Shown here: piece after piece, positions 21,998 to 50,646 of the stretch
Layout of the letters: each line of letters begins with the position of its first letter
How positions within the stretch are numbered: the first letter of the stretch is position 1
Source of the DNA: Craspedostauros australis
Lineage: Eukaryota; Bacillariophyta; Bacillariophyceae; Mastogloiales; Achnanthaceae
Reading direction: 5' to 3'
Assembly (NCBI GenBank): GCA_026770025.1
Contig: JAMXDE010000008.1
Location: forward strand, 744,001-808,000
DNA length: 64,000 nucleotides
Notes under the pieces: generated by a model
What the model was told of the DNA's origin: nothing
The model's database searches: none
Seen by the model: only the letters and a program-made list of their open reading frames with translations
Program-made: the position numbers and the translations under genes

Positions 21998-24703
21998 TCA
22001 TTTGTCCTTCTTGATGATCTTGCCATTGGACCATGTTCCCGCATGACGCGTCGTGCCGTCGGATCGGTATTCGATACCTTCTCCTTGTCGCACGCCGCAT
22101 TCCCAGGAACCTACGTACTTGCTGCCGTTCAACCAGAACAGAGTGCCGTGGCCGTCCATCATGTCGTTTTTGAACTGGCCTTCGTAGATGCTGCCATCCA
22201 CGAAGTAGTACTTTCCGCCGTCACGCTTTCCGTTGCTGAAGGTGCCCTTGTACTTGCTGCCATCCTGGTAGTTCATGACACCGTTGTGGAGCTGTCCGTT
22301 GTCGAATTGGCCTTGGACGACACGGCCGTCGTGGAACTTGATGGTGCCGTTACCATGCTCCTTGTCATCCCAGAACGTTCCGATGTACAGATCGCCAAGG
22401 GCGTTGCTGGACTTGCCGTGGCCGGAACGGATGCCGTTCACCCACTGTCCGTGGTAGTAGCACGAAGGGTGGTTATTGTACTCCATGCGACCGTATCCGT
22501 GCGGGACCTGGGTGCTTGCTTGGATGGTTCCGGTGTAGGTGCCAGGATTTCCCTGCCCGTCAATGGTGGGTGCATCCACGACATCATTTGTTGAGGAGAT
22601 CAACGAGGTGTCATCGCTGTCGAATGTTGGACAGCTGCGGTTGGCTTGATCCAGGAATGCCAGAGATCGAGAGGATTTGGAACGATGTGGCGAGATATCC
22701 GAGCGCTGCTTCATGCTGCTGCTCTTGGAGTACGACGAGAGTTGGCGTTGCAATTGCGAACTGCGGTGGGGTTGCTGGTCGTCCTCCTTGTCGTCGTTGC
22801 GGCGGCTCATTTGCTCACCGCGCTCGCTTTTTGCCTTGCTTGTGAGGTGTCGCTCGGAATGACTTTTGGAGTAGGTGTGACGCTTGGATCTCGGCATCGC
22901 TGAACGCATTGATGCCACGGAAGCCGAAGACGATGATCCCTTCTTCTTGGAAGACGACGACGATGATGATGCTTTGGGTCTCGGTGGTGAATGGTCCATC
23001 GTGTAGCCGGTGCTTCTACGACGGCTGGTCCTCGCAGATCTCGGAATGGAGATGGTGATCGATGGATCCGTGTTGGAACGATTCACGTTCTTCTTTCTGC
23101 CAGACGAAACACTCTTATCGTCTTTGTTGTTGTTGCCGCTGCTAGTGCCGCTGCTGTTGTTGGCACTACCTCGGGTGCTGGAAACCCGGGTGCGATGGAG
23201 CTTGCGTGAGGAATACGAATTCTGACTTGCCACTGAGCCGCTGCCCATCGCGGTGGAACGCGTCTGGATGGTTGTGCCACCGATCGATGGCAGCGAGTCG
23301 AGCTCGTCTGGGTATGTGACGGCGCTAGGGTCATCCAGGGCGCCGTACACGTCGGTGTAACTTCCATTGTTGCTGAGAGATGTGCCCCCCGATACTCCAA
23401 TGGGCAATGGCGGATAGTAATGGTTGTGGAAGTGGTCGTCCGCGATGCTGCTGCTGCTCCTGTTGTTGGAGGCATCAGTGGATGAAAGGGACATGGAAGA
23501 CGAGGAAGAGGATGCGAATCGTCTCTTGCCGCGGCTTTGGGAACGGCGGCGCCTTTCGCTGCTCTGCCTCCGCTGTTTGGGCGTGGGGCTGCGTCGTCCT
23601 GCGGATGCCCTGCCACCGTTGCCACGGCCGTTGAGTGCAAGCTGGTTGAGGAACTTTTCTGCCATCCTCTGAGTCTCCAAGAAGCTCTCCAGGTTCTCGG
23701 TGTCGGGATGCGTCGGCGTGTCCGACGAGTAGCGGTGTTCCGATCCCATGAAGTAGGGATCGTCATGGTGATGGTGGCTATTGCTGGGTGCGAAGTGTGA
23801 GCTGTTGCCAGGTGTTTTGGGCGGCTTGGTGGATGAAGAACGAGTTTTGGACTTGGGCTTCGTCGTTGTCTTGGCCTTGGCTTTGGACTTTGATCTCGAT
23901 TTGGACCTCGATCTGGACTTGGATCTTGGCCTGGATGCCGTCCTTGTCCTCGCCCTTCCCTTTGCGTTTGTCTTCGAGGTGGACCTGGACTTGGATGCGC
24001 CGCTTCGGTTTGTCGAAGCCGTGTCCATGGAACTGCGGCGTCTGGTGCGGCTTCGGCTCCGAGGCTTGCCGATGGAGGATGCGGCCAGGCTGTCGGAATC
24101 GATGATGTCAGATCGCGGTCCCAGATGTTGCGGAGGCTGGGGCTGCAGATGTTGCTGGGCAGTGAATGACCTTGTCGTGGTGCTGGTGGGTGACTGCGTG
24201 ATCTTGTCGCCGCTGGATGGATACGCTGCGTGCTGATTCTGATGTTGATCGCGCTTGCGCTGCCCGAACATCGTGCCGTTCTCATCGATGGAGGATGGGT
24301 AGGAGATATCTTCGCTCGCCATGCTGCTGTTGCTGGCGATCGTGCGACCACTGATGACGGTGGTATGAGGGTGGTAGTGGCTGCCGGCATTCCAGTTGCT
24401 CACGCTGGTGATGGTGGTGCAACCAGATGGGACGGATGAGTTGCATGGGTCGTTGGCATTGTCCATCTGTCCCTGCTGTTGCTGGTGCTGACGTTCGTTC
24501 TGGTGATGCAGGAAGTAGGTGTCCAAGCCAGGCCGCCGGTGGTTCGTCATCAGGTCATCGTTGCTGATGCCGTGCCCATCAGCGGCAACACCAACGAGGG
24601 TTGCTGGAGTGTCTTCGCCAACATGGTCGACATCGGTTGGCGTCTGCGGGCGATGGAATGGATCCTCCAGATGTGCGTTGTGGCTCATGACGACCGGGTT
24701 CAT
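21998..24703 (-). CDS. MORN-repeat protein with SR/SK-rich basic domain
   Basis: 901 residues, ATG at 24703, TGA at 21998. The N-terminal 160 residues are His/Asn/Gln-rich and disordered. About 215-300 is an Arg/Ser and Lys/Ser dipeptide region (RSKSRSRSKSRSKSKAKAK) like SR-type phosphorylation domains. About 300-720 is Ser-rich and basic. About 720-895 is an array of seven to eight MORN repeats beginning YTGTIQASTQVPHGYGRMEY and including YIGTFWDDKEHGNGTIKFHDG and YEGQFKNDMMDGHGTLFW. The array has the same register as the tandem pair at 10584 and 14314, but the N-terminal half shares no clear islands. It probably acts as a membrane- or cytoskeleton-linked scaffold; the target is unknown. Confidence 0.86.
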   Translation of the reverse strand: MNPVVMSHNAHLEDPFHRPQTPTDVDHVGEDTPATLVGVAADGHGISNDDLMTNHRRPGLDTYFLHHQNERQHQQQQGQMDNANDPCNSSVPSGCTTITSVSNWNAGSHYHPHTTVISGRTIASNSSMASEDISYPSSIDENGTMFGQRKRDQHQNQHAAYPSSGDKITQSPTSTTTRSFTAQQHLQPQPPQHLGPRSDIIDSDSLAASSIGKPRSRSRTRRRSSMDTASTNRSGASKSRSTSKTNAKGRARTRTASRPRSKSRSRSKSRSKSKAKAKTTTKPKSKTRSSSTKPPKTPGNSSHFAPSNSHHHHDDPYFMGSEHRYSSDTPTHPDTENLESFLETQRMAEKFLNQLALNGRGNGGRASAGRRSPTPKQRRQSSERRRRSQSRGKRRFASSSSSSMSLSSTDASNNRSSSSIADDHFHNHYYPPLPIGVSGGTSLSNNGSYTDVYGALDDPSAVTYPDELDSLPSIGGTTIQTRSTAMGSGSVASQNSYSSRKLHRTRVSSTRGSANNSSGTSSGNNNKDDKSVSSGRKKNVNRSNTDPSITISIPRSARTSRRRSTGYTMDHSPPRPKASSSSSSSKKKGSSSSASVASMRSAMPRSKRHTYSKSHSERHLTSKAKSERGEQMSRRNDDKEDDQQPHRSSQLQRQLSSYSKSSSMKQRSDISPHRSKSSRSLAFLDQANRSCPTFDSDDTSLISSTNDVVDAPTIDGQGNPGTYTGTIQASTQVPHGYGRMEYNNHPSCYYHGQWVNGIRSGHGKSSNALGDLYIGTFWDDKEHGNGTIKFHDGRVVQGQFDNGQLHNGVMNYQDGSKYKGTFSNGKRDGGKYYFVDGSIYEGQFKNDMMDGHGTLFWLNGSKYVGSWECGVRQGEGIEYRSDGTTRHAGTWSNGKIIKKDK

Positions 24704-26407
24704 GGTTTAACTGGAGTACTGCTATGATACGATGCGAGTATGACAGTATGGTACGACTGCAAGATGTGAAGAGATCCTGATCGATGGATCGAGCACCCGA
24801 GTTCTTCAGTGAACAGTTGTTGGTCGCTGGCCGAGATAGTGAGCTGGATGCGCCACCCTCTCTCTTGTGACTTGGGTTGTGCGGTGTTGCCTTTCTCCTT
24901 TGGGAATGTGTATGGTCGGTGTCTACTTGCCAAGTATTGTATTATATAATAGAATATAAGATTATGATTGTATGGGTTGTCCTCCAGCTCGTACAGTACA
25001 CGAGGGGAGCCTTGTGGAGGAGTCTGGTTGCGGATTGGACTCGTGAGAGGAGGCACAGCTGCTTTGGTGAGAATTGATTGTGTTGGAAGGGTTGTGGTTG
25101 GGTTCATCGTCAGTGAGGGAGATCACATGAACAATGCACCCAGCGTCAGTGATCGCAGTCTTGTGTGTTCCCTCTGCACACATCAGTTGTCCGTACCTCT
25201 GGATACATGTGAGTGGAGAGGAGCGACACCCTCCACCACAGAACAACGCATCCTCGCTTGCATCATTGGTGACGTTCATCGACTCCGCATGGGCGCAAAC
25301 AGAGCCGGCGACACAGAAATGCAACATCAACGACGTATCAACGACACATCAACCACGCATCAACTGCCGAAGCATTTTCGGCCGCCACAAAGACATTTCG
25401 TTCGTTCGTGTTCTGTCCGGTCTTGGGTGGCCTCTGTTTTGTGAACCTCAGACATTTCGTTGTTCACGCCAGTCATTACCATAAGTGTATCTGGACTACT
25501 TGTATGTCGCACCAAGATCAAGGACAATCCGAAAGATACCTTTTTGGTTCCCACAATCCCCGCATCCATGTGTGTCGTGAGTGCATCTGTCAAGATATAT
25601 GTTCACGAAGTGCATGGGAACGCGATGGTCCGAGTCACATGTTGTCACGGGAACATGTGTTGGGAGTGCAGCATCTATGGCAAGGGGGCTCCCATGCCTG
25701 TTGACTGAGGTTGTTGACCATCACACTGGGTGCATGCTTTGCCCTTGCTCTTGTTGCGGCTGTTGTGGGTACAGCATTCGAAGATGTTGCGTTGCGATGA
25801 TGCAATCCTCCACCGTTTCCACATGCGTTCTTGCATTCGTTCGCTCACAACCTGCGCTGCACTTCTTCGTGTTTGATCCGATTGCGCATTTCTGCCTCGG
25901 TGTCCCTCAACCATTCTCACCCGGCAATGAAGAACGTCACGTCCGAACTATTCTACCAAAATGGCATCGAAACGTGACACGGAATGGTGACAGCAACCAT
26001 GTGGATGACAAATGCGCAGTCACAGAAGAGAAAGCTCTTCTGTCTCTCGCCCCTTGCCGCGGACTCCATTTGCTTCAATGCAAGATGTGACCAAGACACG
26101 AGCAAGACACCGCCACCTCCGAAATTATTGGAGACAGAACCATGTCACAACCGCAACCAAGACGCCAGCCACAACAACTCCAAAGAAGAGCACAAACATC
26201 AACCTCAACAACACGCACGAACAACTTGCTCCACATTGCCATCGGTTTCAGGTCCGTGAGTCGAAGTTGGTGGTTATTATACGATTTATTCTATGATAAT
26301 ACTCTGCGCGTATCCAACTGATTGATTGGAGACATGGTGCACCGCCTCACATTTTTCGCGGTTGTGGATTGGTGGGCTCTCTCTCTACTCATGGTCGCGC
26401 TCGCACA
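24704..26407. other. Intergenic region, no gene seen
   Basis: 1.7 kb between two minus-strand genes. An AT-rich patch lies near 24935-24970, about 230-270 bp upstream of the MORN start. Overlapping frames of 75-170 codons show no recognisable sequence. Confidence 0.5.
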
Positions 26408-30600: not shown

Positions 30601-30659
30601 GCATTTCAACATCAACCTTGGGGGATGCCGACGCGATGTTGCGGACAAAGCGCGCATCG
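27638..30659. other. Long intergenic region up to the transposon
   Basis: About 3 kb upstream of the armadillo-like gene and outside the transposon terminal repeat. Only one small frame (29614-30006, minus) looks mildly protein-like. The rest shows overlapping random frames. Confidence 0.45.
29614..30006 (-). CDS. Possible small protein, unknown
   Basis: 130 residues with a true ATG at 30006. The composition is ordinary for a protein (start MRLVVELKLPSSFDKFRPAF, a basic middle, LVLIQTRPTKVVTNAAALLP near the end), unlike the Cys/His/Arg-rich random frames around it. No motif, signal peptide or membrane segment is recognised. It could be a small gene, a fragment of a larger spliced gene or chance. 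Confidence 0.25.
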   Translation of the reverse strand: MRLVVELKLPSSFDKFRPAFGVETTPIEGAATSPGVARYQPHDMSMSMIISNPGELPARVQHGYRNIIRARPRKEKKTEGLGSLNSVRLVLIQTRPTKVVTNAAALLPLRKNERPIEAYPIIRDKSCSSI

Positions 30660-30674
30660 GGGAGGCGCGGTAAT
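30660..30674 (+). repeat. Left terminal inverted repeat core
   Basis: GGGAGGCGCGGTAAT, preceded by one further G. Exact reverse complement of 36616-36630. Similarity beyond the core is weak and gapped. Confidence 0.7.
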
Positions 30675-31691
30675 CCATTTGAGTGGTGCATTACAAAGGG
30701 CATTTTTCGTCACAAAACGGTGTCCTTCACCTTTTTTCTAAAAAATTTAAATCACAATTCCGGATGCTTTCGGACACGCCAAGTTTTGCGATGCGATCGT
30801 CGCTGATGTGCCGACGCTTCGGTGATTGTCTCGCTCACAATTTTTTGTGTTTTGCCCACGACATCACAGGGTGCGCTTCTGCCTGCGTCGTTCCTTGTCT
30901 CTCCGCCATTGACGTTGGAATGGTCGTCTGCGGCATCTGCTGCCTTTGGCCTCTCCGGTCTGTACTAACACTGACACATCACCATTGTGGCTTGGTGATA
31001 AAGCAACACACCACCACTCCTCCACAGTACAGTTGTTGTTGCTGTTGGACTTCGCCTCGTTGTCGCCTCGTTGTCGCCTGTGCGGAGGCACAAGACGTGC
31101 GCTGGTGTGCTGGACTGCGCGGAAGCACAAGACGGGGGCTGGTGTGCCGTGGTTTTTCGTCGTCATTCCTGCAGCTGTTTCGTCTGTGCTCCCGTTCATC
31201 GACCTTGGCCTTTCCACTCTGCACGATCGCACAGCGATTCGTCCGTGTTTCTGTTGTTGCCGTCCTCCCATTGACGGAGTCTGCGTGGCCGATCTTCCTT
31301 CGCGCTCCATCGCTTCCATTACACGAAAGCGCAACAGAGACACAGCCAACGCAACAGTCCAACAATGTTCGTGCCTTCTCAGCACCTGTTGTTTCCTCCG
31401 TTGATCGTGCCTCCGGGAAATTGTTGTTACGCCCCAAATTTGATGCCAACACGCGCAAACAACCCACTTACGTGTACTGGTTGTGTGTTAATGAAGTTTT
31501 GCCTGTTACCATCACACAACACTGGTGGTCGAGATGCAACTTCATCGATCAGGCTAATAGTAGTACACTCGTCGGTCACATTCGTTTGGCCCTGCGGCGT
31601 ATCAATCGCGGACACGATGGCAGAGACGTTTAATTGTTAGAGCAACGCCTTCAATACGAAACGTGTGTCTACTTTAAATGAAACATGCAGT
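30675..31691. other. Transposon left arm, no gene supported
   Basis: About 1 kb between the left terminal repeat and the transposase stop codon. A 316-codon plus-strand frame crosses it but is Cys/Ser-rich and unrecognised. It contains an 11-bp duplication (CGCCTCGTTGT) and a diverged repeat of about 30 bp (copies near 31082 and 31117). Confidence 0.5.
30745..30763 (+). repeat. AATTCCGG-type motif in left arm
   Basis: ATTTAAATCACAATTCCGG, similar to the two sites in the central intergenic region of the same element. Confidence 0.55.
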
Positions 31692-32927
31692 CTAGTCGTG
31701 ACCCATTCGCTGCCGAGCTGTGGCCAGCGCCTTGTCGGCGTCGAACGCTGGGTAGCCGTTAGAGAGCTCGATTTGGGTGATGACCACCACTGCATGAAAG
31801 GCTGTGTGATGCTTGTCCACGTGGTGACGCCACTTCTGCCCCAAACAGCCCCACTGCTTCAACCTGCCGTTAATTGTTTCATGACGAGCACGAAGAATGC
31901 CATCCGCTCTGTATGTCGGAGGAAATACTTTGTCATCTCCTCTGTAGCCGTTATCAGCAATCACGACCTCGTCTGCGCGAATTGCTTGCTTGAGGGCAGA
32001 CCGGAAGATGGACAGGTCATTCATGTATCCACATGGAAAGGGGCCATTCACCCAAACAATGTCTCCTCTACTGATGGAAACAGCCACTTCATACCTAACA
32101 CCAGCAGCTTTGAACTTGTGCGAGAACCACACCCTGTTGAACGGTTTGGGGTCGTTAGTGCGAAAGTCAGTGCCGTCCACAGTTAAGAAAGCGCTGCCAT
32201 CTCTGTCTGCATCAATAAAGCGATTGTCTAGGTCGATCTGTAGGCAAGCAAGATGGATACAATCAGTCACGAATGGAAATTGTGAGTGAGTCGTGGTAGG
32301 TAAAAAAGAGGGTTCGCAATTTTTGGGGGGGTTCTCATGTGCTGTACTTACGATGTCATGACGCAACTCGGCAACCGCTCGGGCCATGACCCACGCCCAC
32401 TTGCGGAAAGTTTTCGCGCTGACGTCCATCATCCGCGCAACCACTGTCTCCGCCAAATACATTCGGAGGAACGCGCACATCCAAAGGAGGTGTTTCGGCT
32501 TCGCATCGAAGGGGAGAAGACCTGTGCCAATCAGGTCTTCCCAGAGCAGGTGAGTGATCGATGGATCCGTGCCGAACATTCCACGAAACTCTCGCAGCTG
32601 TGAGTCGTTCAGCTTGTTGGCATCATGACGGTCCATGTCGCGTCCCATCAACAAAAAGCCTTCCACTGCGAATTCACCTGCGCAGCTGCCCTGTGACACG
32701 ACATCCATGTCTGTGAGTTTTGTGTTGGCGCTGCTTCGACTACGTGGAGTACAAGTTGGTGCGGGATTGTTGCAAGACAGCGTTTTGTGTGATGACAGCG
32801 AGAACGGCGAGTCCACTGGTCGTGAAGGAAGTGCCTGGGCTCCATCTCGTTGTCGCCAGCGTTGTACGCTGTCGACTACAACATAGTCTACAAAGTAGCT
32901 CCTCCAGTTCATGCCAACTAGTAGCAT
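31692..32927 (-). CDS. Harbinger-type DDE transposase (DDE_Tnp_4 family)
   Basis: Two exons: 32927-32352 and 32237-31692, joined in phase 0 across a 114-bp GT-AG intron. The junction reads ELRHDI|IDLDNRF. The catalytic triad is visible: VDGTDF (first Asp), VIADNGYRGDD (second Asp) and ARHETINGRLKQW (Glu). FNGPF-like context (WVNGPFPCGYMNDLSIFRSA) is typical of the family. The upstream helix-rich region (DPSITHLLWEDL, SAKTFRKWAWVMARAVAEL) probably includes the DNA-binding part. It should cut and paste the element through its terminal repeats. The start is uncertain: ATGs at 32927, 32912 and 32708 are all in frame, and the stretch between (VDSPFSLSSHKTL region) may hide another intron. The shortest start still keeps all catalytic residues. 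Confidence 0.85.
   Translation of the reverse strand: MLLVGMNWRSYFVDYVVVDSVQRWRQRDGAQALPSRPVDSPFSLSSHKTLSCNNPAPTCTPRSRSSANTKLTDMDVVSQGSCAGEFAVEGFLLMGRDMDRHDANKLNDSQLREFRGMFGTDPSITHLLWEDLIGTGLLPFDAKPKHLLWMCAFLRMYLAETVVARMMDVSAKTFRKWAWVMARAVAELRHDIVSTAHENPPKNCEPSFLPTTTHSQFPFVTDCIHLACLQIDLDNRFIDADRDGSAFLTVDGTDFRTNDPKPFNRVWFSHKFKAAGVRYEVAVSISRGDIVWVNGPFPCGYMNDLSIFRSALKQAIRADEVVIADNGYRGDDKVFPPTYRADGILRARHETINGRLKQWGCLGQKWRHHVDKHHTAFHAVVVITQIELSNGYPAFDADKALATARQRMGHD
32238..32351 (-). other. Transposase intron, frame-preserving
   Basis: 114 bp, donor GTAAGT, acceptor CTACAG. It is a multiple of three without a stop, so a retained transcript would encode 38 extra residues. Removal is supported by the continuity ELRHDI|IDLDNRF before the VDGTDF block. 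Confidence 0.75.
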
Positions 32928-33552
32928 GTCGGTGTGGCATGCTCTGTACAAGTAGTGCTTCAGCCTCCCATGACTTCGATTGCATCGGATGGTGTTTCAT
33001 GTCCCACTTGATGCAATCCGTCTCTACTGTGTGGCTTACATGTGGCTACAACAATGTAATTTGCAACAGCCACGGTAGTATACATAATAGAGCAACGCGC
33101 GATGCATTGGACTGTCTGCTGTACGCATGCCAATAGAGGAATGATTGTGGCATGGTGCGACCTATACAAACGTGCCTACATAGTGAGGTTGCGGTTGTCA
33201 TTAGGGATCTGTTGTCCTCCAATGCAATGCAGGACTTACACAGTATGAAAGGTAGACTGCTCCACTCAACGTCGTTGCAGCAGTCCATGCTGTCGGCTTG
33301 GCTGTCGCGTTCGATCAACACGTGACGATCAAACGACCGCGCATTTTGGTTGCGGGCGCGCGCTGCAGGGGGGTGCGTGACTTGAGTGGGACGCGGGAAC
33401 GCTAAGAGAAACGGAGGAGGTGCCTTCTCGTAGTGGAGCTTTTTAGGCATGCAGCGCAGTTCGTGACCTTCATCAGGTAGGGAAGTTACATCAGTTCTAC
33501 GTGGGGATGTGGAAAGATTCCCATCCAACATGGAAATACTACGAGGTCGAAC

Positions 33553-33712
33553 GGAATTGTAATGTAAATTAAATTATAATTCCGGCCCTCTCTCCCCAGC
33601 AATTCCACCCAAAAAGGGAAAGATCTCACACTGCCGTCGTGGTCACATGAAGAATACGCTCGGAATTCCAAAATAATTTAAATTATAATTCCGGGTGGAA
33701 TTACAATTTATT
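33553..33712. repeat. AT-rich palindrome cluster between the transposon genes
   Basis: Two imperfect palindromes bounded by GGAATT and AATTCC lie about 110 bp apart (near 33553-33585 and 33662-33694). They share the direct repeat AAATTATAATTCCGG. An inverted version (GGAATTACAATTTATT) follows at about 33697. All are in the divergent promoter region of the element, so binding sites for its own proteins are a reasonable guess. Confidence 0.75.
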
Positions 33713-34063
33713 TCTTTGGGAAGGTGGAACAATCCCTTCAACAATGAAGTGGGATTTCTTTTTACTATTGTACAGGGAGGAGCTCTTGCTGGCACTTGCG
33801 TCGATAGTGTTGTGCGACCCGCCATCGTCCATGTGGGATACCGCTGAACAAATGCTATGTAATATGCTACATAGAGGTTGTACTTTATTAGTTCCGCTGG
33901 AAGTACAGAACGAAGCGGGAATACCATGACTATTACCACCAGTACTATCAGGCAGGCAGGCAGGCCAATACACAACTCGTTTGTTTGTACCGCAAATAAG
34001 ACCATGTGCACATCAGGATGCACCACAAGAGTGTTTGGTGGAAAGGAGACACAAAACAGAAAT

Positions 34064-36364
34064 ATGGCCAAGCCGAAACGTTGGGTATACAGTTGCTCAC
34101 AGGTGCAACTACTTAAAACGCACATCCAGACCGGAGCCATCCGACCCGAGTGGACCGCAAAAGAGGTGTGGAACAACTCCGAAATCGCACGCCAATTCAT
34201 CCAAAGCGAATTTCCCCGGAATCTGTCGAATCTGCGTGCGAAGGTCAGACAGGAGCAAAGTAAGTACCTTGGATTCATGACGTGTGCAATCATGATTTGC
34301 TCGACTACTGTGTGCGTGACTCATAAAACGTGACTAAAATTTTTTTACTCGTGATTGGGGTTTTCAGTCCAGAGAGACGCCAACGAATCTCCAACCGTGT
34401 CGGAGCTTGCTGCGCACGCGAAATCGATTCGGGAAGCTTCTCGAATGGTCCGGAACGACATCAACCTGACGAACCTAGACAACAACAACAACAACGCAAC
34501 AACGCAGCCACCACCACCATCGCAACAAACAAACACCATGAAACACCCTCCTTCACCACCAGTCGCCACCACTGACGCCGATGTCATGAAGTGGCTCGAC
34601 GCAAACAACAACCACGCTCTGCCCGTCACGCGCACATTCTACCGCAACGCGAATGGCGAGCGTATCATCGACCTCACCTTCGAACTCACTGGTGGCACTT
34701 GCCACAAAGACCTTCGTGTGCATGTTGCGCCTGGGGGCATGTCTGTTGTGCTTGAAGTTGCACAAAATGCTGCTGTTGCAAACATCGAACGTGTTCACGA
34801 CCATTTGCGCGATGAGTTTACGGTTGCGAACGGTCTTTGGGTGTCTCCCTTCAACGACGAGAAGGCACGTGCAGATGCAAGCAAGACATCATTGTCGCGT
34901 ATGAAACAGCGCAATGGAGCACCAGTGCGCACACAAACTGTCGATTTGCCGTTCGCTGTGACAAATCGATGGGAACGCGCTGACGATCGCGTTCTCAACG
35001 GGATCAACTACCTTGAACTTGAAGTTCCAACGAACGACAAAGAAGCTTTGGTGCGGGCGCCTGTGCTTATCGTCCGTGTTGTTGAGCAAAACAGTTCTCA
35101 TCCCATCGTCTCTATCGTTCCCAAAGCTCGTTCTCCACATAATCGCCCTGTGTTCGCTGGCTTGTCGCGGGTTGGGGCGACTAAGCCCCAATTCCGTGTT
35201 GACATCAACACGCGTCATACATGTCTTCCCTCCCGTTGCGATGACTCCAGCATCGGTACTGGGACATTTCTTCAAGCGAAGACATACGAGAAGCCAGCCG
35301 CGATAGAGGTAAGTAAAAGCAGAATGACCCGATGACTTTCACGATCACCCACGACTCGATGGGTGACAAAAGCACACGGACTAACACATGCAATTTTCTT
35401 CCACTTTGCGAACTTCTTCTTCCAACAGCGCGGTGTGTTTGGGAAGGCTTTTCCCGAGGGTCCGGACGTGGTGAGCCTGTCCGGTAAAAGCCTGAGTGCC
35501 ACCAGCAGCCGCTTTGGTGCATCCACCAGCAAACACTCCAAGACCAAAAGCAAAGCACGCAAGAAAAAGCGGAAGGACAAGAAACACAAATCACCCACAA
35601 AAACCAAAAACGCCATCCACCACACCGAACCAACACCCGCACCAATCAGGCGTGGTGTTGATGCCGCGATCGCCCATGGCATCGCGATGGCAGCGGCCCG
35701 CTACCCCCGCACCCCCAAGAGAGCCCCCCCGGGCCACGATGAGGTCCTCATTGAGCGCGTGGTGCCAGCGGGGAAATCCCCGCGCGTCAAACCATCAGCA
35801 GTGGCGAGAGCCCGAGCGTTTGCGGTGAAGACCGCGGCTGTGGCGGCACGAGCGAAGAGGGAGGCTGATGCTGCAGCACAGGAAGAAGCTGCTGCTCGAG
35901 CCAAACAAGAAGAAGAAGAAGCTGCTGCTGCTGCTGCTCGAGCCCAACAAGAAGAAGAAGATGCTGCTGCTGCTGCTCGAGCCCAACAAGAAGAAGAAGA
36001 TGCTGCTGCTGCTGCACAAGCCAAACAAGAAGAAGAAGATGCTGCTGCTGCTGCTGCACAAGCCAAACAACAAGAAGATGCTGCTGCTGCAGAAGAAGGC
36101 CAGGACCCCCAGTGGGTTCCAGGTGGTGGTATTGATGCAACTCTCCCAGAGTACGCATTTGATGAATTCGACGGCCTCGACCTACTTGGAGACAACTTGT
36201 TGGGGACCGGCCTGAATGAGCCAATGAAGGAGGACAGCAATGACGAGGACAGCAGCTACGAGGACAGCAATGATGAGGGCAGCAATGATGAGGACAGCAG
36301 CGACGAGGACAGCAGCGAGGAAGAGGACAGCAGCGACGAGGACACCAGCGAGGAAGAGGATTGA
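34064..36364 (+). CDS. Transposon partner protein (three exons)
   Basis: Exons 34064-34259, 34368-35308 and 35429-36364; both introns have GTAAGT donors and CAG acceptors and the joins keep frame, giving 690 residues. Residues 1-66 (SQVQLLKTHIQTGAIRPEW, ARQFIQSEFPRNLSNLRAKV) match a small helical domain I recall from algal and oomycete transposon-linked proteins; the name is not known to me. An Asn/Thr/Pro linker leads to a folded middle (about 105-345; GERIIDLTFELTGGTCHKDL, LNGINYLELEVP) of no recognised family. Exon 3 encodes a Lys-rich basic patch, an Ala/Gln/Glu repeat region (about 530-600) and a Ser/Asp/Glu tail. It is divergent from the transposase, the usual layout for a Harbinger accessory protein that aids DNA binding or nuclear import; that role is inference. 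Confidence 0.8.
34260..34367 (+). other. Intron 1 of partner gene
   Basis: 108 bp, GTAAGT...TTTCAG, phase 1: the A before it joins TC after it to form an Ile codon. In-frame stops occur within it. Confidence 0.8.
35309..35428 (+). other. Intron 2 of partner gene
   Basis: 120 bp, GTAAGT...CAACAG, phase 0. The exon 2 frame meets a stop inside it, so splicing is required to reach the repeat-rich C-terminal part. Confidence 0.8.
35878..36090 (+). repeat. Coding minisatellite (Ala/Gln/Glu units)
   Basis: About five degenerate units of 36-48 bp built from GCTGCTGCT, GCCCAACAA and GAAGAAGAAGAT blocks. They encode alternating Ala runs and QEEED-type runs in the partner gene, predicted as a charged alpha-helix. 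A second low-complexity run (GAC/AGC/GAG codons) makes the acidic tail at 36230-36361. Confidence 0.9.
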
Positions 36365-36615
36365 TGACATCGTACCGAAATACATATAACAGTAAACAAG
36401 CCACACACACACTCTTGTACGCAGTAGCAAATAGTAAACCAGTAATTCGCCGCATACAAATAAGCAGCAAACATCAGTACTGTATGACAATGGAGCAAAA
36501 TTCTGTTGTTCCATCCACTTAAAGGTCACGAAATGAATAGAAATATCGGGCATGGCAGTTTGCTCGCCTTTTCGCGATATTTTGATGTTGATGCAATTAT
36601 ATTTCAACACATGGC

Positions 36616-36630
36616 ATTACCGCGCCTCCC
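36616..36630 (-). repeat. Right terminal inverted repeat core
   Basis: ATTACCGCGCCTCCC, exact reverse complement of 30660-30674, 252 bp beyond the partner gene stop. Confidence 0.7.
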
Positions 36631-37760
36631 GGCGCAATTCAGACATGCGATCGGTGGTGATGTGTAGCTGTTGCCGTTGACGAGAGAACAAGAGGAAACA
36701 AGCCCAACGGCCCAGCATGGACCCATTGCGCACTGTTGGTGCTTGGTTGGCGTCGGTGATGTTGGTGATGTTTGATGGCGCGTTGTGTGCTATGTTTCCT
36801 TTTTCCGCGTTTGTTATTGTGCTGCCCAAAGTGTCCTACTCCGATACTGTACCGGGCGACGGATGAGAACGGTACCGAGAGTGCTGTGAGTGTAACGCTG
36901 GGACATTTGAGGCTTGATTGAAGATACAACCGTGAAAATAAAGCCTCCAAAGTGTTGTGTGAGCAGCGAACCACGGCTCTTTCCCGCGGCGTTGGGGCTA
37001 GAATGGCCCTTGATTCACATCCAGCTATTGTCATTTAACGATCGTGATTCGAGTTCGCGATGTTGAAATCGTGAGTCACCCATTCCTCCTCATGTTTTCA
37101 CGTCAAAGTATCTCCTGAGATTCTCCCGCTTTGCTTTGGTGTCATCAGTACAGGTGCGTTTTGCGCGGTGCTTTCGCACCTTAGATGTTTGGCGGGCGTC
37201 CATGGTTATCTCTTGGCACGAGCAGCCTTCGACTTCGCTTCGTCTCTCTCCCTCCCTCCTTTCTCCTTGTGTAGCTCTTACCAGTACGTGTGCCATGATG
37301 TGTTTGTGTGAATGTGCGAGGAGATTTCATTTGCCTTCTCGTTGTTGTCGTTGAGACCCTTGGCCATGCCCAAGAAGCTGCGCAATCACATCAAGGCTTC
37401 GCGAACCAAACACAAAATCACATCACAGTTGACACCCAAGGCAGGAAGCAGAAAGCAAGAGCAGAAGCCGTATTCTCTACCTCATTGAAGCAGCTGCCCT
37501 TGGAGCCGCAGCCCTCACAGAGCCATCACCCAAGACGGCTTGGCCACGGCAAGTTGCCAATCAACCATTGTCCAGCGAGGCGATCATTTGATCACCAACC
37601 CTCCGCATCGTTCCCAAACGAGCAACAGATCACTCACACACCCACATCAGTGCGCCCACATCAGTAGTAGCACCCCCGCAACCCACCTGGCTCCTCTGTT
37701 GCTCTGCACATCTCCAAACACAGCAAGAGACGAAGTTGGCGATCGAAGGTGATATGCACA
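36631..37760. other. Intergenic region, no gene seen
   Basis: 1.1 kb between the transposon end and the next plus-strand gene. Frames of 65-130 codons are unrecognised. Promoter and 5' UTR of the gene at 37761 should be here. Confidence 0.5.
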
Positions 37761-39264: not shown

Positions 39265-41067
39265 TTATGTCCCCCGAAATTCATCATGCTCAAATCGCCC
39301 CCGCTGCTTCTCTGGTGTGGCCCTGGGATAGAACGTGCCGATGCCGTGCATCTTGCCATTCTCGAAGGATCCGGCGTAGGTGTCGCCATTGTCGAAGCGG
39401 GCGACGCCGATCCCGTGTGGCAAGAACACGCTGGGATCTTCCCTGGATGGCATGACGGGGCCGCTGTACTTGACGTGCATGCCGCGCACTTGGAAGTCGA
39501 AATGTCGCACGCGTGTGGGTGTGCTTTGGGCCATAACTTCGTCCTCGAATGTGACTTGGCGTTTGAGCTTCTGCTGCGCCAGGCTGATGTTGTCTGGCGT
39601 CCCCGGTGGTCTTCGGTAGCCCATGATGTGACGTGGCGATGGGGCTGTCTTTCTCGGCGTAATGTAGCTGCTGTTGTTGTTGTTGTTGTAGCTATGCTGG
39701 CTCTGGCTCTGGCTCTGACTGATGATGCTGTCATCCATGGAAGGTCCCTTCATGATCATGGCTTCGACGCTTTCGGGTGGCTCCCCTTTCTCGGCCACTT
39801 GCTTCACCTGAACCGCCCGGTCGTCGTCTTGACGACCCGGCGTATTCTGCTGCTGTTGTTGTGTCTCGGAAGATGCAAGATCTGATCTGGAGATCATGGA
39901 GAACGACTGGGACATGGAGAGCGACATGGACATCGAAGGAAGCGGCCTGGGCGATTGCTGCGATGCGTTGGATCCGCTGTACTTGCTGGTGAGATCGATG
40001 ACGGACATGTCTGTCTGCTGTTGTTGTTCTGGCGTTTGCTGTTGTTGTTCTGGCGTTTGTTGTGGCGGAGTCGATGGAGACAGCGGTTCACGATTGCCGC
40101 CATGATTCGGACTGGTGACATTCTTATTGCTGCTGTGGTTGTTGACACGACCTTGCGCATTCCCATTGTCACCATAGTCTTGTTCCTCCTCCGAAATGAC
40201 GGAGATCGGCTCCTTGAAGGAGCGACCCAACGGATCATCGAGCAGACCTCCAATCTGCTTACGCAGATCCCGCACGGTCGCCTGCAGCAGACCGATCTGC
40301 TCCGCCTGCTTCTCGATGAGGATCGTCTGCAATCGAATCTCCTCGTCCTTGCACCCGCACAGATCGCATGGTTTCAAGGAAGGATGCAGGCTGTTGCCAT
40401 CCGTTTGATGTTGGGAGAAGTGCTGCAGGACGGATTGCGTACGCATGTGATGATGGCTGTGTTGCGCATCATCATCATCATCATCGTCGTCCTCCTCTTC
40501 CGATGAGATAGAATGCTCCTCCTTCTTCTCTTCGCCATCATGCGATGAGAACGAGAACGGGGACGACGTCGACGCCGCCGACGAATCCAGAATGGGCGAC
40601 AGAGGTGCGCCCACCGTCGGTTCCTGCCTCAGAAAGTGCGGATTGGACAGACTGGAGATGGTGGATTTGCTGGACAATCCGGAGGAAGCGTTGGGCAGCG
40701 ACAGCCGTTCGTGAGGCACCATGACGAGGGCGTCCTTGGGCAGCGACGCCGGCGGATCGGCCCGGTGAATGACCATGCCTCTGCCATTGCTGTTCATCGT
40801 CTTTTTGGGGACAAGCATGCCGACTCCGGCACCCAGATTGGCAGGTGCGTCTTCGCCCGTAGTGTGCTGCATCTCGGTGAGCTGTTGTGGCTGCGGATGC
40901 GTGAGTTGCTGTCGCTCTCCAGCAGCTGCGGCGGCCCTGTTCTCGACAGAGGGAGACTGCGTCGCCGATAAGGTGCCTTGCGTCGTTGGCGGGTCATTCG
41001 CCCCGAAGATGCCGTTCGACGTGAACTCCGTCGATGGCCAAAACGAGTTGCTGAACACGGATGTCAT
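39265..41067 (-). CDS. Short-array MORN protein with Cys/coiled-coil module, copy 1
   Basis: 600 residues, ATG at 41067. The N-terminal 230 residues are disordered with Asp (DDDDDDDD) and His runs. Cys234, Cys237 and Cys239 (PCDLCGCK) directly precede a coiled coil at about 240-273 (IEKQAEQIGLLQATVRDLRK). A Gln/Asn-rich spacer follows, then a C-terminal block from about 533: VKYSGPVMPSREDPSVFLPH, IGVARFDNGDTYAGSF, GKMHGIGTFYP, containing about two MORN units, ending QRGRFEHDEFRGT. The same layout recurs at 41824-43098 and 46205-48721, defining a subfamily distinct from the long-array MORN genes upstream. Function unknown; coiled-coil oligomerisation plus a MORN tip suggests a scaffold. Confidence 0.85.
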   Translation of the reverse strand: MTSVFSNSFWPSTEFTSNGIFGANDPPTTQGTLSATQSPSVENRAAAAAGERQQLTHPQPQQLTEMQHTTGEDAPANLGAGVGMLVPKKTMNSNGRGMVIHRADPPASLPKDALVMVPHERLSLPNASSGLSSKSTISSLSNPHFLRQEPTVGAPLSPILDSSAASTSSPFSFSSHDGEEKKEEHSISSEEEDDDDDDDDAQHSHHHMRTQSVLQHFSQHQTDGNSLHPSLKPCDLCGCKDEEIRLQTILIEKQAEQIGLLQATVRDLRKQIGGLLDDPLGRSFKEPISVISEEEQDYGDNGNAQGRVNNHSSNKNVTSPNHGGNREPLSPSTPPQQTPEQQQQTPEQQQQTDMSVIDLTSKYSGSNASQQSPRPLPSMSMSLSMSQSFSMISRSDLASSETQQQQQNTPGRQDDDRAVQVKQVAEKGEPPESVEAMIMKGPSMDDSIISQSQSQSQHSYNNNNNSSYITPRKTAPSPRHIMGYRRPPGTPDNISLAQQKLKRQVTFEDEVMAQSTPTRVRHFDFQVRGMHVKYSGPVMPSREDPSVFLPHGIGVARFDNGDTYAGSFENGKMHGIGTFYPRATPEKQRGRFEHDEFRGT

Positions 41068-41823
41068 CGCCCCTCTCAGATCCCCTTGATGCGTTGCTTG
41101 TGATTGATGATTGATGATTGATGGTCGGCACCCTTGGAAGGCACTGCTCTACTCTGACAATACGTTGAGTATGCAGATGTCACAGGTAATGAGACCCCCA
41201 CAATCACTGTTCAATACTGCGATTGAGGGTGGAATAATGAATGATTTCGTCGTCAAGGCGCAAGTGATTACTTTCACCTCAAATGCAGAATGCAGAATGC
41301 ACAATACAGAATGCGCAATGGAAATGGAGATTCATGTGGGGTTCAGTTTGTTGGAGCAGAGTGGGATGCCTCCAACGGTGCGTTCTGGGCCGCTTCTGAC
41401 CTCCTCTCATTCAAAACACGCACGGACAGATGATGATTAGCATTCCACGTTGGTGTGATACTTCCGCCCATCGGCCTCGCGTGGTTCAAAACCCGTGGCG
41501 ATAAAAGGGGTTCGTGTCAGGCGCGTTAGACGTTATTTACGGTTATGTCGGTGTATGATTCGAGGTTTCAAATTCGAGCAAAAACAACTCGTCAGAAAAT
41601 TGCCCTGGAAGAACATAGCAACAATTTACGGCCATCATCATGCTCGTAGCAACAGGATTTGGATGGTGGAGGTGCGAGTGCCTGCTCCAAGATTATTACC
41701 ATAGAGCAGAGCGATTCATTTCTGCTCCTCTATCCCAATGCAGGAACTGTTCTCCCATTCCCTTTTCATGCGTCTTACTATACGACCCAGGGCTCTCCCA
41801 TCCCCCCACCCCTACCCGCATCA
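41068..41823. other. Intergenic region, no gene seen
   Basis: 756 bp between two minus-strand MORN genes. It contains a degenerate 7-bp tandem repeat (CAGAATG, about five units, 41286-41320) and TGATTGA-type repeats just upstream of the copy 1 start. Confidence 0.5.
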
Positions 41824-46204: not shown

Positions 46205-48721
46205 CTAGCCCTTCTTGGTTGGAGCCAGCGACGTCCATGTCTGGCGAGATACCTGCCCATCCATTCCGACGATGCTGCAGTAGGTCTTGTCTCGTTGACC
46301 GTATGCTCCTCCTCGAGGTCGTCGGTGTTGCTGTCGTTGTTCCTGCTTCTGCTGCTCTTCCTGTTTGTTCTTCAAGCTGATTTTGTTGACACTTGTCTTC
46401 TTGACGCTACAGCTGGTTGTGCCAATGCTCTCGCTCTTGGGTAGCACCTGGGCTCGACGACTGCTCGCCGGATACAACGTGCCATGACCATGCATCTGTC
46501 CTCTGTGGAATTCTCCCAAGTACAGATCGCCCGATTCGAAACGGGCAACCCCCGCGCCCTCTGGCATCCATTGATCGGACTGATGGAGGGCGGGTCCGCA
46601 GTACTTGGCAGGACGGTTGTTGATCATGATGGAAACGTGTCGCACGCGCTCCACAGTAAGCACGGGCGCACGTTCATCACTTTGCTCTATTGTCTGGTCC
46701 TTGTTGGCGTTATCACGCGGGCTCTCATCAGACTGCGATGTGCAGGCTGATGGCGGCAACGACGATTGTGATACCGACATGGCTGCCGTGACCGCTGTGT
46801 TGTCAGCGCGGTCTTCTTCGAAGGAATCCTCGGCGACAGAATCGGCATAGGGCTGTGCTGGTTCCTTGAGGTGATGAGGCGTGGTCACGTCATCGTCGTT
46901 GGCTTTATCAGTCGTGCTTCTCGCAGTGTTGATGGAGTCGGAGCTGTCTGAATCGACGTTGGCGGCTCGTTCGCTCTCGTCGACTATCGGTGAGGTTGGA
47001 ACGGAGGAAGCCGACGTGGTTGCTGAAGTATGTTGAGAGGAGATGTCGCTTGGCTGGGATTGAATGACGTCGTTGGTGATCTCACCACGCCCTGCCTCGC
47101 AGGTTCCACTCTCGCAACAAGACGCGAGGATGTCTTCCTGCGGCAAAGGCCGGGATTGATCATCGTTCTCCAACTCGCAGTCATCCGTCTGCGTCGCTGT
47201 AAATGTAGACGTTGTCACCGGCTCGTGCTTCCTTCGGTGCTTCTTCGCTTGCTGCTTGAGCTGTCGGATGGTCTTCTCGAGTTCTTGGATGCGATCCTGC
47301 TGCCTTGCCACGAGTAGCGAGAGCTGCACCATGGCCTGGTCCTTGCCTTCACAATCCATGCAATCGCTCATGCTTTGCGATGTTGCCGACACCAACGACA
47401 TCGATGATGTTGATACGGATGCTGACGGAGACGCAGAACAGCAGGAAGGCTGAGTCGGACCTGACGCAGTGTCTTGGAGCATGGCGTCCATCTCCACGAT
47501 GCACTCGTACTTGTGAATGCTCTGATGCTTGCCGCCTTCCTTGTCATGACGGATGGACGGCTGCGGGCTTCCATCGAAGTTGCTTGTCTCGGTCCTGTCA
47601 GCATTGAAGCCATGACACTGTTCCCTTGCGATGTCCTGATGAATCTCATCGGCCCAGACAGAAAGGGAGCTTTGGTCCACGAGGTGATGGTCGCTGGTTT
47701 CGTTGGGATGGGTTATGGTTGGCATCATGAGATTGGCGCTTGGTGCGTCATCGACCTGGTTCATTGCTTTGGACACATCGCTGCTCTCACTGTTGCTGTC
47801 CAGGTCAGAACTGGTGCCGGGATGTGCAGTGTGGTTACTCTTGGCCACCATACAACCGGGCGATGGTGACGGCGATGCGGTGCTGACGGAGGCAGTACCT
47901 TCCAGCTGTTCCAACGGACGAGGATGGACAATTTGCTTGGGATGTGGCCGTGATGATGGGCTTCTCAGGACGTCCGAAAGAATGTCTTCTGGAGTGGGAA
48001 TGGGATCCACAAGATCGTGGATGCAGATGCTGGGAGAATCGCATTCCTGCTCAGCTTCGTTTGCTGTTTCGTCTACGTCAACGTCAACGTCATTCAGCTG
48101 CTCATGACCGTGGCTTTGCTGCTCCTCGACCTGATCCTCGCTGTTGCTGTCAACGGTGCGAATCTTGTGAAAGATGCATGAGAGAGCAACGGAGCTGAAA
48201 TCGTCGTCGTCGTCATACATATTGGACTCAGCATGATGATGGTGCTCGATGATCGCCGGGATGCCAGCGAGGTTCTGCGACGGGATGGATGCGGATGCAG
48301 ACGCAGATGCCAAAGATGGAATTGAGAGCGATCTCAGGATGTGATGGATACATCGAGGAGATTCCGAACCATGCAACGGTGTTTGCTCTTGTGCGCCTTG
48401 GCTCTCATCGTCAATATCTTCGCAATGGTAGGAGTCAACTTCCTCCAAAGGAGTATCGCATGGGGTGCCTTGCGCAATTGTTGCTAGTGCACCATCTGTT
48501 GGTGGAGCTGATGTGTTGTTGTCTGACTCTGGTGCAGACGATGATGAGCTGGTTCGCGATTGCGTCGTGAGCGTTGATGTAGACGACGCGATGGACACAG
48601 GCGATGTGTCGCCGGTTGCCATCGCAGGCAATGTTGGATACATGGATGCAAACCCAAATGCAGAGCCCTTGGTTGTCATCATCGCCATCGACACAAGCGA
48701 TGATTGCGGATTGCGCAACAT
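46205..48721 (-). CDS. Short-array MORN protein with Cys/coiled-coil module, copy 3
   Basis: 838 residues, ATG at 48721 (several further Met codons follow, so the start could be a little downstream). Long disordered N-terminal half with Ser/Thr, His and Asp-Val runs. CMDCEGKD precedes a coiled coil at about 455-500 (LLVARQQDRIQELEKTIRQL). A second acidic spacer leads to the C-terminal MORN block at about 700-760: AKYCGPALHQSDQWMPEGAG, VARFESGDLYLGEF, GQMHGHGTLYP. Unlike copies 1 and 2 it lacks the QRGRF ending and instead has a Gln/Lys-rich tail of about 65 residues. It is the most diverged of the three. A scaffold role is inferred from architecture only. Confidence 0.82.
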   Translation of the reverse strand: MLRNPQSSLVSMAMMTTKGSAFGFASMYPTLPAMATGDTSPVSIASSTSTLTTQSRTSSSSSAPESDNNTSAPPTDGALATIAQGTPCDTPLEEVDSYHCEDIDDESQGAQEQTPLHGSESPRCIHHILRSLSIPSLASASASASIPSQNLAGIPAIIEHHHHAESNMYDDDDDFSSVALSCIFHKIRTVDSNSEDQVEEQQSHGHEQLNDVDVDVDETANEAEQECDSPSICIHDLVDPIPTPEDILSDVLRSPSSRPHPKQIVHPRPLEQLEGTASVSTASPSPSPGCMVAKSNHTAHPGTSSDLDSNSESSDVSKAMNQVDDAPSANLMMPTITHPNETSDHHLVDQSSLSVWADEIHQDIAREQCHGFNADRTETSNFDGSPQPSIRHDKEGGKHQSIHKYECIVEMDAMLQDTASGPTQPSCCSASPSASVSTSSMSLVSATSQSMSDCMDCEGKDQAMVQLSLLVARQQDRIQELEKTIRQLKQQAKKHRRKHEPVTTSTFTATQTDDCELENDDQSRPLPQEDILASCCESGTCEAGRGEITNDVIQSQPSDISSQHTSATTSASSVPTSPIVDESERAANVDSDSSDSINTARSTTDKANDDDVTTPHHLKEPAQPYADSVAEDSFEEDRADNTAVTAAMSVSQSSLPPSACTSQSDESPRDNANKDQTIEQSDERAPVLTVERVRHVSIMINNRPAKYCGPALHQSDQWMPEGAGVARFESGDLYLGEFHRGQMHGHGTLYPASSRRAQVLPKSESIGTTSCSVKKTSVNKISLKNKQEEQQKQEQRQQHRRPRGGAYGQRDKTYCSIVGMDGQVSRQTWTSLAPTKKG

Positions 48722-50646
48722 GCTTGCAGTCCGATTGGTATTCTATGTTGATGGTCGAGCGACTAGTATGTAGAGTATGAATGGATGTTGCGAAGAAGTG
48801 ATGTGATGTGAACGAGTGAGAGACATGTGTTGGTGTGAGTGATATGAATGACAAGGCTGCGTAGGAGAGAATCCAAGAAGCACACAGAGATCAAGCAGCA
48901 GCTCCATGGGACGCCCACCGCAGGATCCAATGCCGCCAACTCAACAAAGGTCATCACACTCGTAGTCCTCACTCACCTTTTTGATTGATTGATTGATTGG
49001 TTGTTGGTATGGTAAGGGTTGGCACAGCACAAGGTCTTCCGTGGGATTGCTCAAACCGAGCTGGTTCAAGCCGTTAGTCGACGGGTGCGTCAAGTGCTGT
49101 GATGCGTCGCTGCTTGTGTGCCGTCCGCCCCTTGGTCTGCGCTTTATGAGTACACTCTATCTGGAACTCGATTGCTGTCGGCGTGGTCCTACGTCTGATG
49201 TCCCGTTGCGATATGTTTCTCGGATACCGATGGTTGCCAACTGCGTGCGTATCTGTACATGCGTCGATGTGTGTTTCCAAAACCACCTCGACGATGAACA
49301 TCACAACACCACAAGAGAGACCAGCAGCGACGATGATGGCCCGCCGACGGATTTGTGCAACGGGAAGCTGTGATGCACTCCCTCGCAAGAGAGAAGATGC
49401 AAGAGCCGCAAGATGGCGGCAGTATCTCGACAGCCGATGGCCGAAAATAGAAGCCGATCCCGACTGGCGATCTGCTTCCTTGTGTTGCCCGATGATCGCC
49501 TGTGCTCGGGAAGAGTGGAAGAGCTGATGAATGAGATCCCTCGCGCCATGCAGCGCAGCCATCAACCAGGCAGCGGATCGTCCCTGTGTCGCTTTGGATG
49601 CGCTGGACTGGTACCCGTGCCGCACTCGCACGGCGCGCATCGTTGATTCCTCTCTTTCCCACCAACGCTGATGGCGCTGTTCCCGAACTGAATTCCCATG
49701 ACTTTCTCCATCCACGCATTTCTGCTCTCTTGGTTCGTTGCCACGCGTTGCGACGACATCTAATCTGCATTCCTCTATCTGGGCTGAAATCGCTTCGCTG
49801 TCGGTGACCTTTGCGCAACATGGCGCACAAGTCGGCAGCCCCATCCCGCTTCTCGTTGAAACGAAGCAGAACCCCCACAGTACCCATGCTCCTACGATCC
49901 CTCCCACGTGCGAACCACGCACTAGCAGCCGCGCGCAGATCAGAACGCCGAAAACAAGACGAGAAGGGTGGTGGGCGAAACGTCCCAACAACTCCGCTGA
50001 CACAACGTCCTCTGTCTTTTCGGGTGTCATGATGAACTGCCGTTGCGGCGGATCGCGAAGGCCATCATCAGGAACAGAACAAATTCGCATTTTGACATGT
50101 CTGGCTGGAGTTGTGTGAACGAACGAAAACTTGGAATTTTGAGACATGCTGCGACGACTCACTCGAACAAATCGAAGAAAAAGAATGTTCGAGTTGGTCA
50201 AAGTGCGTCTGTCAATAAGCTACGGAGATAAAACAAGAGTCTTGACCCACCCGTTCGATTTGCGTGGTTGATCCAACGGCGAAGAAGCATGTCACAAGTG
50301 ACAACACTCAGCATGATCATCTCTGGCTCGTATTACATGTCTAAAAGTCTGCCTTGTGCAGCTCATTCCTATTCTGATAATATTCAATTACATTTACGTC
50401 CTGTTGCTGTATCGGTGAGTCGCCGCAGTTTGCACATCAGTCAGTTTGCGTCCGCGAGTTGTATTGCAGTTGCAATCTGTCTGCTTGTTTGTTCTTCAAT
50501 CTCACCCTTGGTGCTTGCGCATTTTAGCTCTTCATTTCATTCTTTGTTTGCTGTTGTGTGAGGGTGCTGCATGTTCCATTCGCCAAGGACCTGTACTCGT
50601 AGAGAGTCTTGCAGACGTTGTGCGGTGCTTTCGTTAACAATCGAAG
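48722..50646. other. Intergenic region with a weak long frame
   Basis: 1.9 kb. A minus-strand frame of 375 codons (49074-50201) opens at TTG, is Arg/His/Cys-rich and has one hydrophobic stretch (IIVAAGLSCGVVMFIVEVVL). Its first ATGs are internal. It could be a spliced gene fragment but is not supported. (TTGA)n lies at 48980-49000. Confidence 0.4.

Follow-up and report, generated by a model that had tools for sequence, protein, structure and literature searches.

An apparently complete two-gene PHIS transposon with C-N-G target-site duplications and a conserved partner of unrecognised domains

In a 64-kb stretch of genomic DNA (64,000 nucleotides of contig JAMXDE010000008.1, hereafter the window), our analysis revealed a real DNA transposon of 5,969 bp at positions 30661-36629, apparently complete and mobile until very recently, in which a transposase gene and a second gene, hereafter the partner, are enclosed by short terminal inverted repeats (TIRs) and flanked by a 3-bp target-site duplication (TSD). 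By its TSD and TIR, the element agrees with NuwaI, a group within the PHIS (PIF/Harbinger-ISL2EU-Spy) superfamily. We consider it probable that it is a complete cut-and-paste PHIS transposon that moved recently and makes C-N-G duplications of the NuwaI type, and that its partner is an obligate accessory factor. An earlier note on the window had already proposed an intact two-gene DNA transposon from the letters alone, and the comparison with other copies described below agrees with it in outline and corrects it in its ends and in its classification.

The ends of the element were set by comparison with its other copies. The earlier note had seen a 15-bp inverted repeat bracketing both genes, and this repeat is indeed exact (30660-30674 and 36616-36630); however, the TIR itself is only 14 bp long, while the fifteenth base lies outside it as part of the CGG target-site duplication. 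The apparent repeat is one base too long because in any C-N-G duplication the left copy closes with G and the right copy opens with C, two complementary bases. A pattern joining CNG to the TIR has two matches in the window, against 0.00 expected by shuffling. Among the loci fetched from the window's own genome, 13 copies including that of the window had both ends, and the remaining loci had one or both ends missing from the stretch. As these 13 copies were picked by the terminal 14-mer GGAGGYGCGGTAAT, this motif is common to them by construction; the flanking triplets played no part in the choice, and in 12 of the 13 they are identical on the two sides, namely CTG in eight copies, CAG in three and CGG in the window copy. 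Moreover, genome alignments halt at the same first base in the copies on contigs C12, C3, C52, C18, C79, C8 and C28, and at the same last base in those on C12, C9, C2, C3 and C52, so that the further copies which the earlier note had proposed to seek do exist and end at the same bases. The 14-mer has 112 matches in the genome, but counting every one of them as an end of the element was rejected, its T-form being found in Copia-type long terminal repeat (LTR) blocks in the two places looked at, on C16 and C19. A 14-mer form of the TIR, GGAGGTGCGGTAAT, is seen there in repeated TTGGGAGGTGCGG(T/C)AAT-like LTR blocks beside a Copia-type polymerase frame (L080 and L081 on C19, L082 and L083 on C16), with steps of 5.94 and 6.58 kb; this is either a coincidence or a shared recognition motif.

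The recent mobility of the element became apparent when the genome to which the window belongs (74.8 Mb in 90 contigs) was searched with the whole element (the best 40 of 71 candidates were scored). A full-length copy on another contig, C12, has no substitution against the window copy over 5,930 aligned bases, and the sole difference between the two is one 39-bp unit of the Ala/Gln/Glu repeats in the partner (window 36033-36071), which is missing from C12; these repeats, pointed out in the earlier note, are thus present and also variable. On C12 the TSD is CTG, against CGG in the window, and the flanks there, compared over 700 bp, show no match to those of the window copy. Such near-identity of two copies in unrelated flanks indicates a very recent transposition. 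The same search found a pair of copies at 87% on C3 and C52, a pair at 89 and 75% on C18 and C79, five copies at 73-79% on C14, C19, C1, C6 and C17, and partial copies. A 1,764-bp copy on C8, which has retained the two ends, the region between the genes and part of the partner but gives no transposase match, is an internal-deletion derivative. The copy on C9 (L009, C9:618808-625767) is a chimera, with a left part resembling the C14/C1 subfamily, a right part that matches the window copy at 98%, and about 1.1 kb of extra sequence inside the transposase gene; subfamilies therefore recombine. A remoter family is represented by L029 (C2:1553500-1561000), where the transposase is about 54% and the partner about 29% identical. 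Its right end, read inward, is GGAAGCGCGGTAAATACG, and 14 other places in the genome stop at the same base (L029:5714); the left end of this copy is probably truncated, which leaves its duplication unreadable.

The transposase gene lies on the minus strand and would be read from an ATG at 32708, through one 114-bp GT-AG intron, to a stop ending at 31692, giving 300 aa; the splicing of both genes as drawn here is predicted from the letters alone. Its match to Pfam DDE_Tnp_4 (34.7 bits, cut-off 24.8) supports the unbroken DDE_4-type transposase of the earlier note. The catalytic triad D140, D214 and E239 is invariant in all eight aligned sequences (the window and seven relatives, down to 63% identity; an eighth relative, L028, was dropped for a stop codon in its stretch), and its members are spaced by 73 and 24 residues, whereas the D-to-E distance in such transposases is usually 35 or more. 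This alignment, A4, like A1 (14 sequences), A2 (17) and A3 (16), omits near-identical copies. A sequence search of the PDB with phmmer matched no solved structure to the transposase. For the catalytic exon, the ratio of nonsynonymous to synonymous substitution rates (dN/dS) between the window and C3, C18, C14, C1 and C12b is 0.09, 0.04, 0.08, 0.07 and 0.09, respectively; against C36 the dS is saturated, and saturated values give no ratio.

Read as three exons separated by GT-AG introns, the partner would encode 690 aa with no stop in between, and it stands head-to-head with the transposase, in agreement with the earlier note. It begins with a conserved N-terminal domain of about 60 aa, where W7, L17 and V35 are invariant and G24, I26, F50 and L57 nearly so (alignment A2, 17 sequences from several families; L020 was left out as its exon 1 is interrupted), followed by a middle domain of about 190 aa with 16 invariant residues across 16 sequences. 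A composition scan found a basic run at residues 416-435, and D or E makes up 28 of the protein's final 60 residues, where the acidic tail lies; several of the remoter relatives, judged by eye only, also have basic and then acidic stretches towards the C-terminus. The dN/dS values for the window against C3, C18, C14 and C1 are 0.22, 0.17, 0.20 and 0.33 in the N-terminus, and 0.22, 0.12, 0.20 and 0.20 in the middle domain; the near-identical pair C14/C1 gives 0.77 in the N-terminal domain, from very few changes. As these ratios are below 1, the partner is a selected protein, under weaker constraint than the transposase, and weaker constraint or strong divergence between families has been reported for Myb-like partners as well (PMC9179366). 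Both genes thus appear to be open and under purifying selection.

The pairing of the two genes is not accidental. Searched against the genome, partner exon 2 has 73 matches, down to 21% identity, which merge to 71 loci, and the transposase has 98, which merge to 89 loci; with the best 97 of 517 transposase candidates scored, the pairing counts are lower bounds. At 57 of the 71 partner loci a transposase match is found no more than 8 kb away, where about 2% would be expected at random, and the two genes are divergent at 55 of these 57, with one same-strand and one convergent locus. Seven of the 14 unpaired partner loci have a divergent transposase 9-26 kb away, a gap that could be due to insertions. 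Moreover, the N-terminal domain has 27 genome matches; for 25 of them a match of partner exon 2 is at most 1.5 kb away, and for the remaining two a transposase match is at most 2.5 kb away. The two genes, on whose joint occurrence the earlier note had made its element depend, are therefore inherited together, and with the prevailing divergent order and the low dN/dS this upholds the intact two-gene transposon. The rank correlation between partner and transposase identity (0.71 in 33 hand-picked pairs) is not used as evidence, as the loci are non-independent and some values are exon means.

A 20-bp motif, AATTTAAATNANAATTCCGG, recurs in the element. With at most three mismatches it has four matches in the 64 kb, all within the element, against 0.02 expected; since the pattern was derived from these same copies, the comparison between subfamilies weighs more. 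In that comparison, the pair of motifs at a spacing of 109 bp is kept in all eight copies scanned (at most four substitutions), including the deletion derivative, and the left subterminal motif is in place in three of the eight. This distribution would fit a promoter element and, more speculatively, a candidate binding site common to the promoter and the end.

With these parts, the transposition may proceed as follows. The DDE transposase would cut at the GGAGG...CCTCC ends and rejoin them at C-N-G triplets, a chemistry taken over from its family. The partner, encoded divergently from the shared intergenic region, would serve as an obligate accessory factor: its basic patch may carry the complex into the nucleus, its N-terminal domain may contact the element DNA, plausibly at the 20-bp motif, which occurs both close to the left end and in the intergenic region, and its middle domain may hold the transposase. 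The basic patch is proposed as the import signal because the transposase has none, the same scan finding no basic run in it. Most likely, the partner would both import the transposase into the nucleus and direct it to the element, like the second protein of Harbinger3_DR, which is described as required, as binding the ends and as needed for nuclear localisation of the transposase. Ping likewise cannot do without either of its two proteins; its ORF1 protein is found in the nucleus, and after mutation of the Myb-like domain of ORF1 excision could no longer be detected (PMC2836001, PMC9710019).

Several observations weigh against this reading of the element. In yeast, co-expression of Ping ORF1 left the location of the transposase unchanged (PMC2836001), and the import role is therefore not universal. 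The copy on C3, with the non-matching flanks CTG and CAG, is the sole exception among the 13 two-ended copies. A partner was not detected within 8 kb of 32 of the 89 transposase loci; many of these fall in groups with 45-47% identity, where the partner may have diverged too far to be detected. The 20-bp motif was found at the right end in none of the eight copies scanned. An empty site, which the earlier note had wished to see, was sought for the window copy alone and was not found, as the joined flanks searched in the genome matched as two separate halves only. Finally, Myb families in Pfam match none of the 17 members with the N-terminal domain.

As to its classification, Han et al. (2015) sort the PHIS superfamily by TSD into PIF/Harbinger (TWA), ISL2EU (AT), Pangu (ANT), NuwaII (C|TNA|G) and NuwaI (CWG), and they describe NuwaI in 16 animal genomes only, with TIRs of 12-61 bp usually starting with GGG and with a Myb/SANT domain in the second open reading frame (ORF) of most families (PMC4482050). 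Our element has the DDE_Tnp_4-kind transposase of PHIS with conserved D, D and E, and it shares with NuwaI the CWG-type 3-bp duplication (CTG in eight and CAG in three of the 13 copies, besides CGG in the window copy and CTG/CAG in one), a G-rich start of the 14-bp TIR and a second ORF; with the last base of the duplication counted, this TIR reads GGGAGG. It departs from the strict CWG of NuwaI in the CGG of the window, hence CNG, and in a TIR that starts with GGAGG, and it has no detectable Myb/SANT domain in its partner, unlike most NuwaI families in that description (PMC4482050). With PIF/Harbinger proper (Ping/Pong, Harbinger3_DR), which has TWA duplications and a Myb-like ORF1, it has in common two genes, a DDE transposase, short TIRs, a 3-bp TSD and a second protein with a nuclear signal (PMC2836001, PMC2213677). 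However, the duplication here is CNG, identical in 12 of the 13 copies and CTG/CAG in the other, and TWA in none; PIF/Harbinger proper was accordingly rejected, and the assignment in the earlier note does not hold in the strict sense, the element standing beside NuwaI within PHIS. ISL2EU, likewise of PHIS and with a second ORF without Myb, differs by a 2-bp AT duplication and a YqaJ partner in the same account (PMC4482050), and was rejected as well, for the CNG duplication and the lack of a YqaJ match in Pfam. Harbinger-like DNA transposons are also reported in a diatom, Thalassiosira pseudonana, with neither duplication nor partner described in the section available (PMC2806351). In the literature outside most subscription journals and Repbase we found neither CNG-duplicating PHIS elements beyond animals nor this partner, which is weak evidence of absence.

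What the partner is can be read in several ways. That a host gene with no relation to the transposase element came to be bracketed with it by chance is practically inconceivable: a three-exon structure and low complexity at the end of the protein are indeed seen in many host genes, but dispersed copies have the same two genes, order and ends, and the divergent order of 55 of the 57 paired loci persists down to 25-30% partner identity, which refutes it. A serious contender, which we hold to be slightly less probable than its opposite, is an ordinary NuwaI/Harbinger element, where the N-terminus of the partner is a Myb/SANT trihelix diverged past recognition and the middle domain an unremarkable extension. 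The position and pairing of the partner are as in Harbinger, its N-terminal domain is small with the invariant W7, L17 and V35, and the low-confidence single-sequence model of this domain (mean predicted local distance difference test, pLDDT, of 59) has four helices, two of them abutting; strong divergence between families, moreover, is reported for Myb-like partners (PMC9179366). Against it stand the lack of Myb matches in Pfam noted above, the 35 places of PF00249 in the own genome, none of which is within 96 kb of a partner match, and the score of 9.9 for the N-terminal profile against 20 Myb repeats of the own genome, which is in the range of 60 shuffles (mean 8.5, maximum 16.2). PF13837 has no match anywhere, controls included, and is thus uninformative.

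The partner exons of the window reach no family's cut-off in Pfam, and the aligned members have scattered weak matches, in one or two members each (best E 0.0032 for DHX37_C, 0.008 for DUF5798 and 0.013 for DUF1648); PDB profile searches with the middle and N-terminal domains gave nothing under E 0.1 (best E 0.13 to 2.4), single-sequence structure predictions were of low confidence (mean pLDDT 34 and 59) and of insufficient quality for comparing folds, and a search of viral and prokaryotic contigs confirmed no relatives. Both domains hence have no convincing match in Pfam or the PDB, as the earlier note had it, while its new type of accessory protein is plausible yet unproven, given the divergence of Myb-like partners and the lack of a confident structure. 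We think it quite improbable that the middle domain is a beta-sandwich like HSP20/p23 that chaperones the transposase from within the partner or serves as its docking module. Its profile (A3) scores 25.6 against ten HSP20 domains of the own genome (E 0.0019, one comparison) and 24.3 against nine CS domains, in both cases above 100 column shuffles (mean 11.4 and maximum 17.8 for HSP20, mean 9.9 and maximum 16.6 for CS); the related families HSP20 and CS score 36.4 against each other in the same test. The signal is lost with reversed profiles (10.6-11.9) and kept with the helical insertion cut out (25.7 for HSP20, 22.9 for CS). However, the resemblance is local, with 34 and about 42 columns aligned by default in the first strands, the second half alone gives no signal (10.4 and 9.1), the probabilities are 11-19%, and none of the 16 middle-domain members matches HSP20 or CS in Pfam at E up to 10; as the two families were picked by eye, the E-values are uncorrected, and the resemblance is treated as a lead. 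A bolder proposal, which we regard as rather unlikely, is that a PHIS lineage in silicified protists swapped its Myb/SANT partner for an unrelated protein with two domains, a new DNA-contacting one and a new, possibly HSP20/p23-like, transposase-binding one, which would also bind the 20-bp motif as an operator and thereby both recruit and regulate the transposase.

Returning to the transposon with an obligate accessory factor, it bears on why the superfamily needs two proteins, a question for which the two copies without any substitution between them provide material. If the partner is truly without a Myb fold, this need has been met by different DNA-binding solutions; a non-Myb partner, if true, would also separate what is essential (nuclear delivery and recruitment to the ends) from what is incidental (the Myb domain). 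And if the silicon transporters rightly point to a host other than an animal, the PHIS branch with CNG duplications extends past the NuwaI range of the 2015 survey. The features of the element are collected in Table 1.

Table 1. Features of the transposon and their positions in the window
Feature	Position	Strand	Basis or remark
Left target-site duplication CGG	30658..30660	.	equals 36630-36632
Left terminal inverted repeat GGAGGCGCGGTAAT	30661..30674	+	exact repeat, copy comparison, pattern count
Left subterminal 20-bp motif AATTTAAATNANAATTCCGG, position 84 from left end	30744..30763	+	motif scan
Transposase exon 2 (catalytic part; D140, D214, E239 of 300-aa protein)	31692..32237	-	Pfam, reading frame, alignment
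Transposase intron, 114 bp, GTAAGT...CAG	32238..32351	-	predicted from sequence
Transposase exon 1, start codon at 32708	32352..32708	-	predicted from sequence
Core of divergent intergenic region, three 20-bp motif copies	33551..33694	.	motif scan
Intergenic 20-bp motif copies	33551-33570, 33566-33585, 33675-33694	minus, plus, plus	plus copies 109 bp apart
Partner exon 1: conserved N-terminal domain, probably helical	34064..34259	+	reading frame, alignment; helices from low-confidence model only
Partner exon 2: linker and conserved middle domain (34577-35137 in alignment A3)	34368..35308	+	reading frame, alignment
Partner exon 3: basic patch like a nuclear localisation signal (NLS), Ala/Gln/Glu repeats, acidic tail, stop	35429..36364	+	reading frame
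Partner basic NLS-like patch	about 35537-35596	+	exon 3, residues 416-435
Partner Ala/Gln/Glu repeats	about 35846-36090	+	exon 3
Partner acidic tail	about 36230-36361	+	exon 3
Right terminal inverted repeat	36616..36629	-	exact repeat, copy comparison, pattern count
Right target-site duplication CGG	36630..36632	.	copy comparison

The silicon transporter family PF03842 (Silic_transp) has 88 matches in the genome on many contigs, for example at C2:977655-1028778 and on C9, C11, C24, C37 and C61; 32 of the 88 span at least 480 of the 513 profile positions, four of these with an internal stop. Diatoms usually carry a handful of silicon transporter genes, so that 88 matches would be an unusually large family, and so many matches make an animal host unlikely. 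In the window itself, several long frames carrying MORN repeats are found to the left and right of the transposon (10479-13220, 14287-16455, 21998-24706 and 39265-41148), a further one at 46205-48742 is below the cut-off, and a frame at 4201-5310 matches DUF6824 with 50.7 bits.

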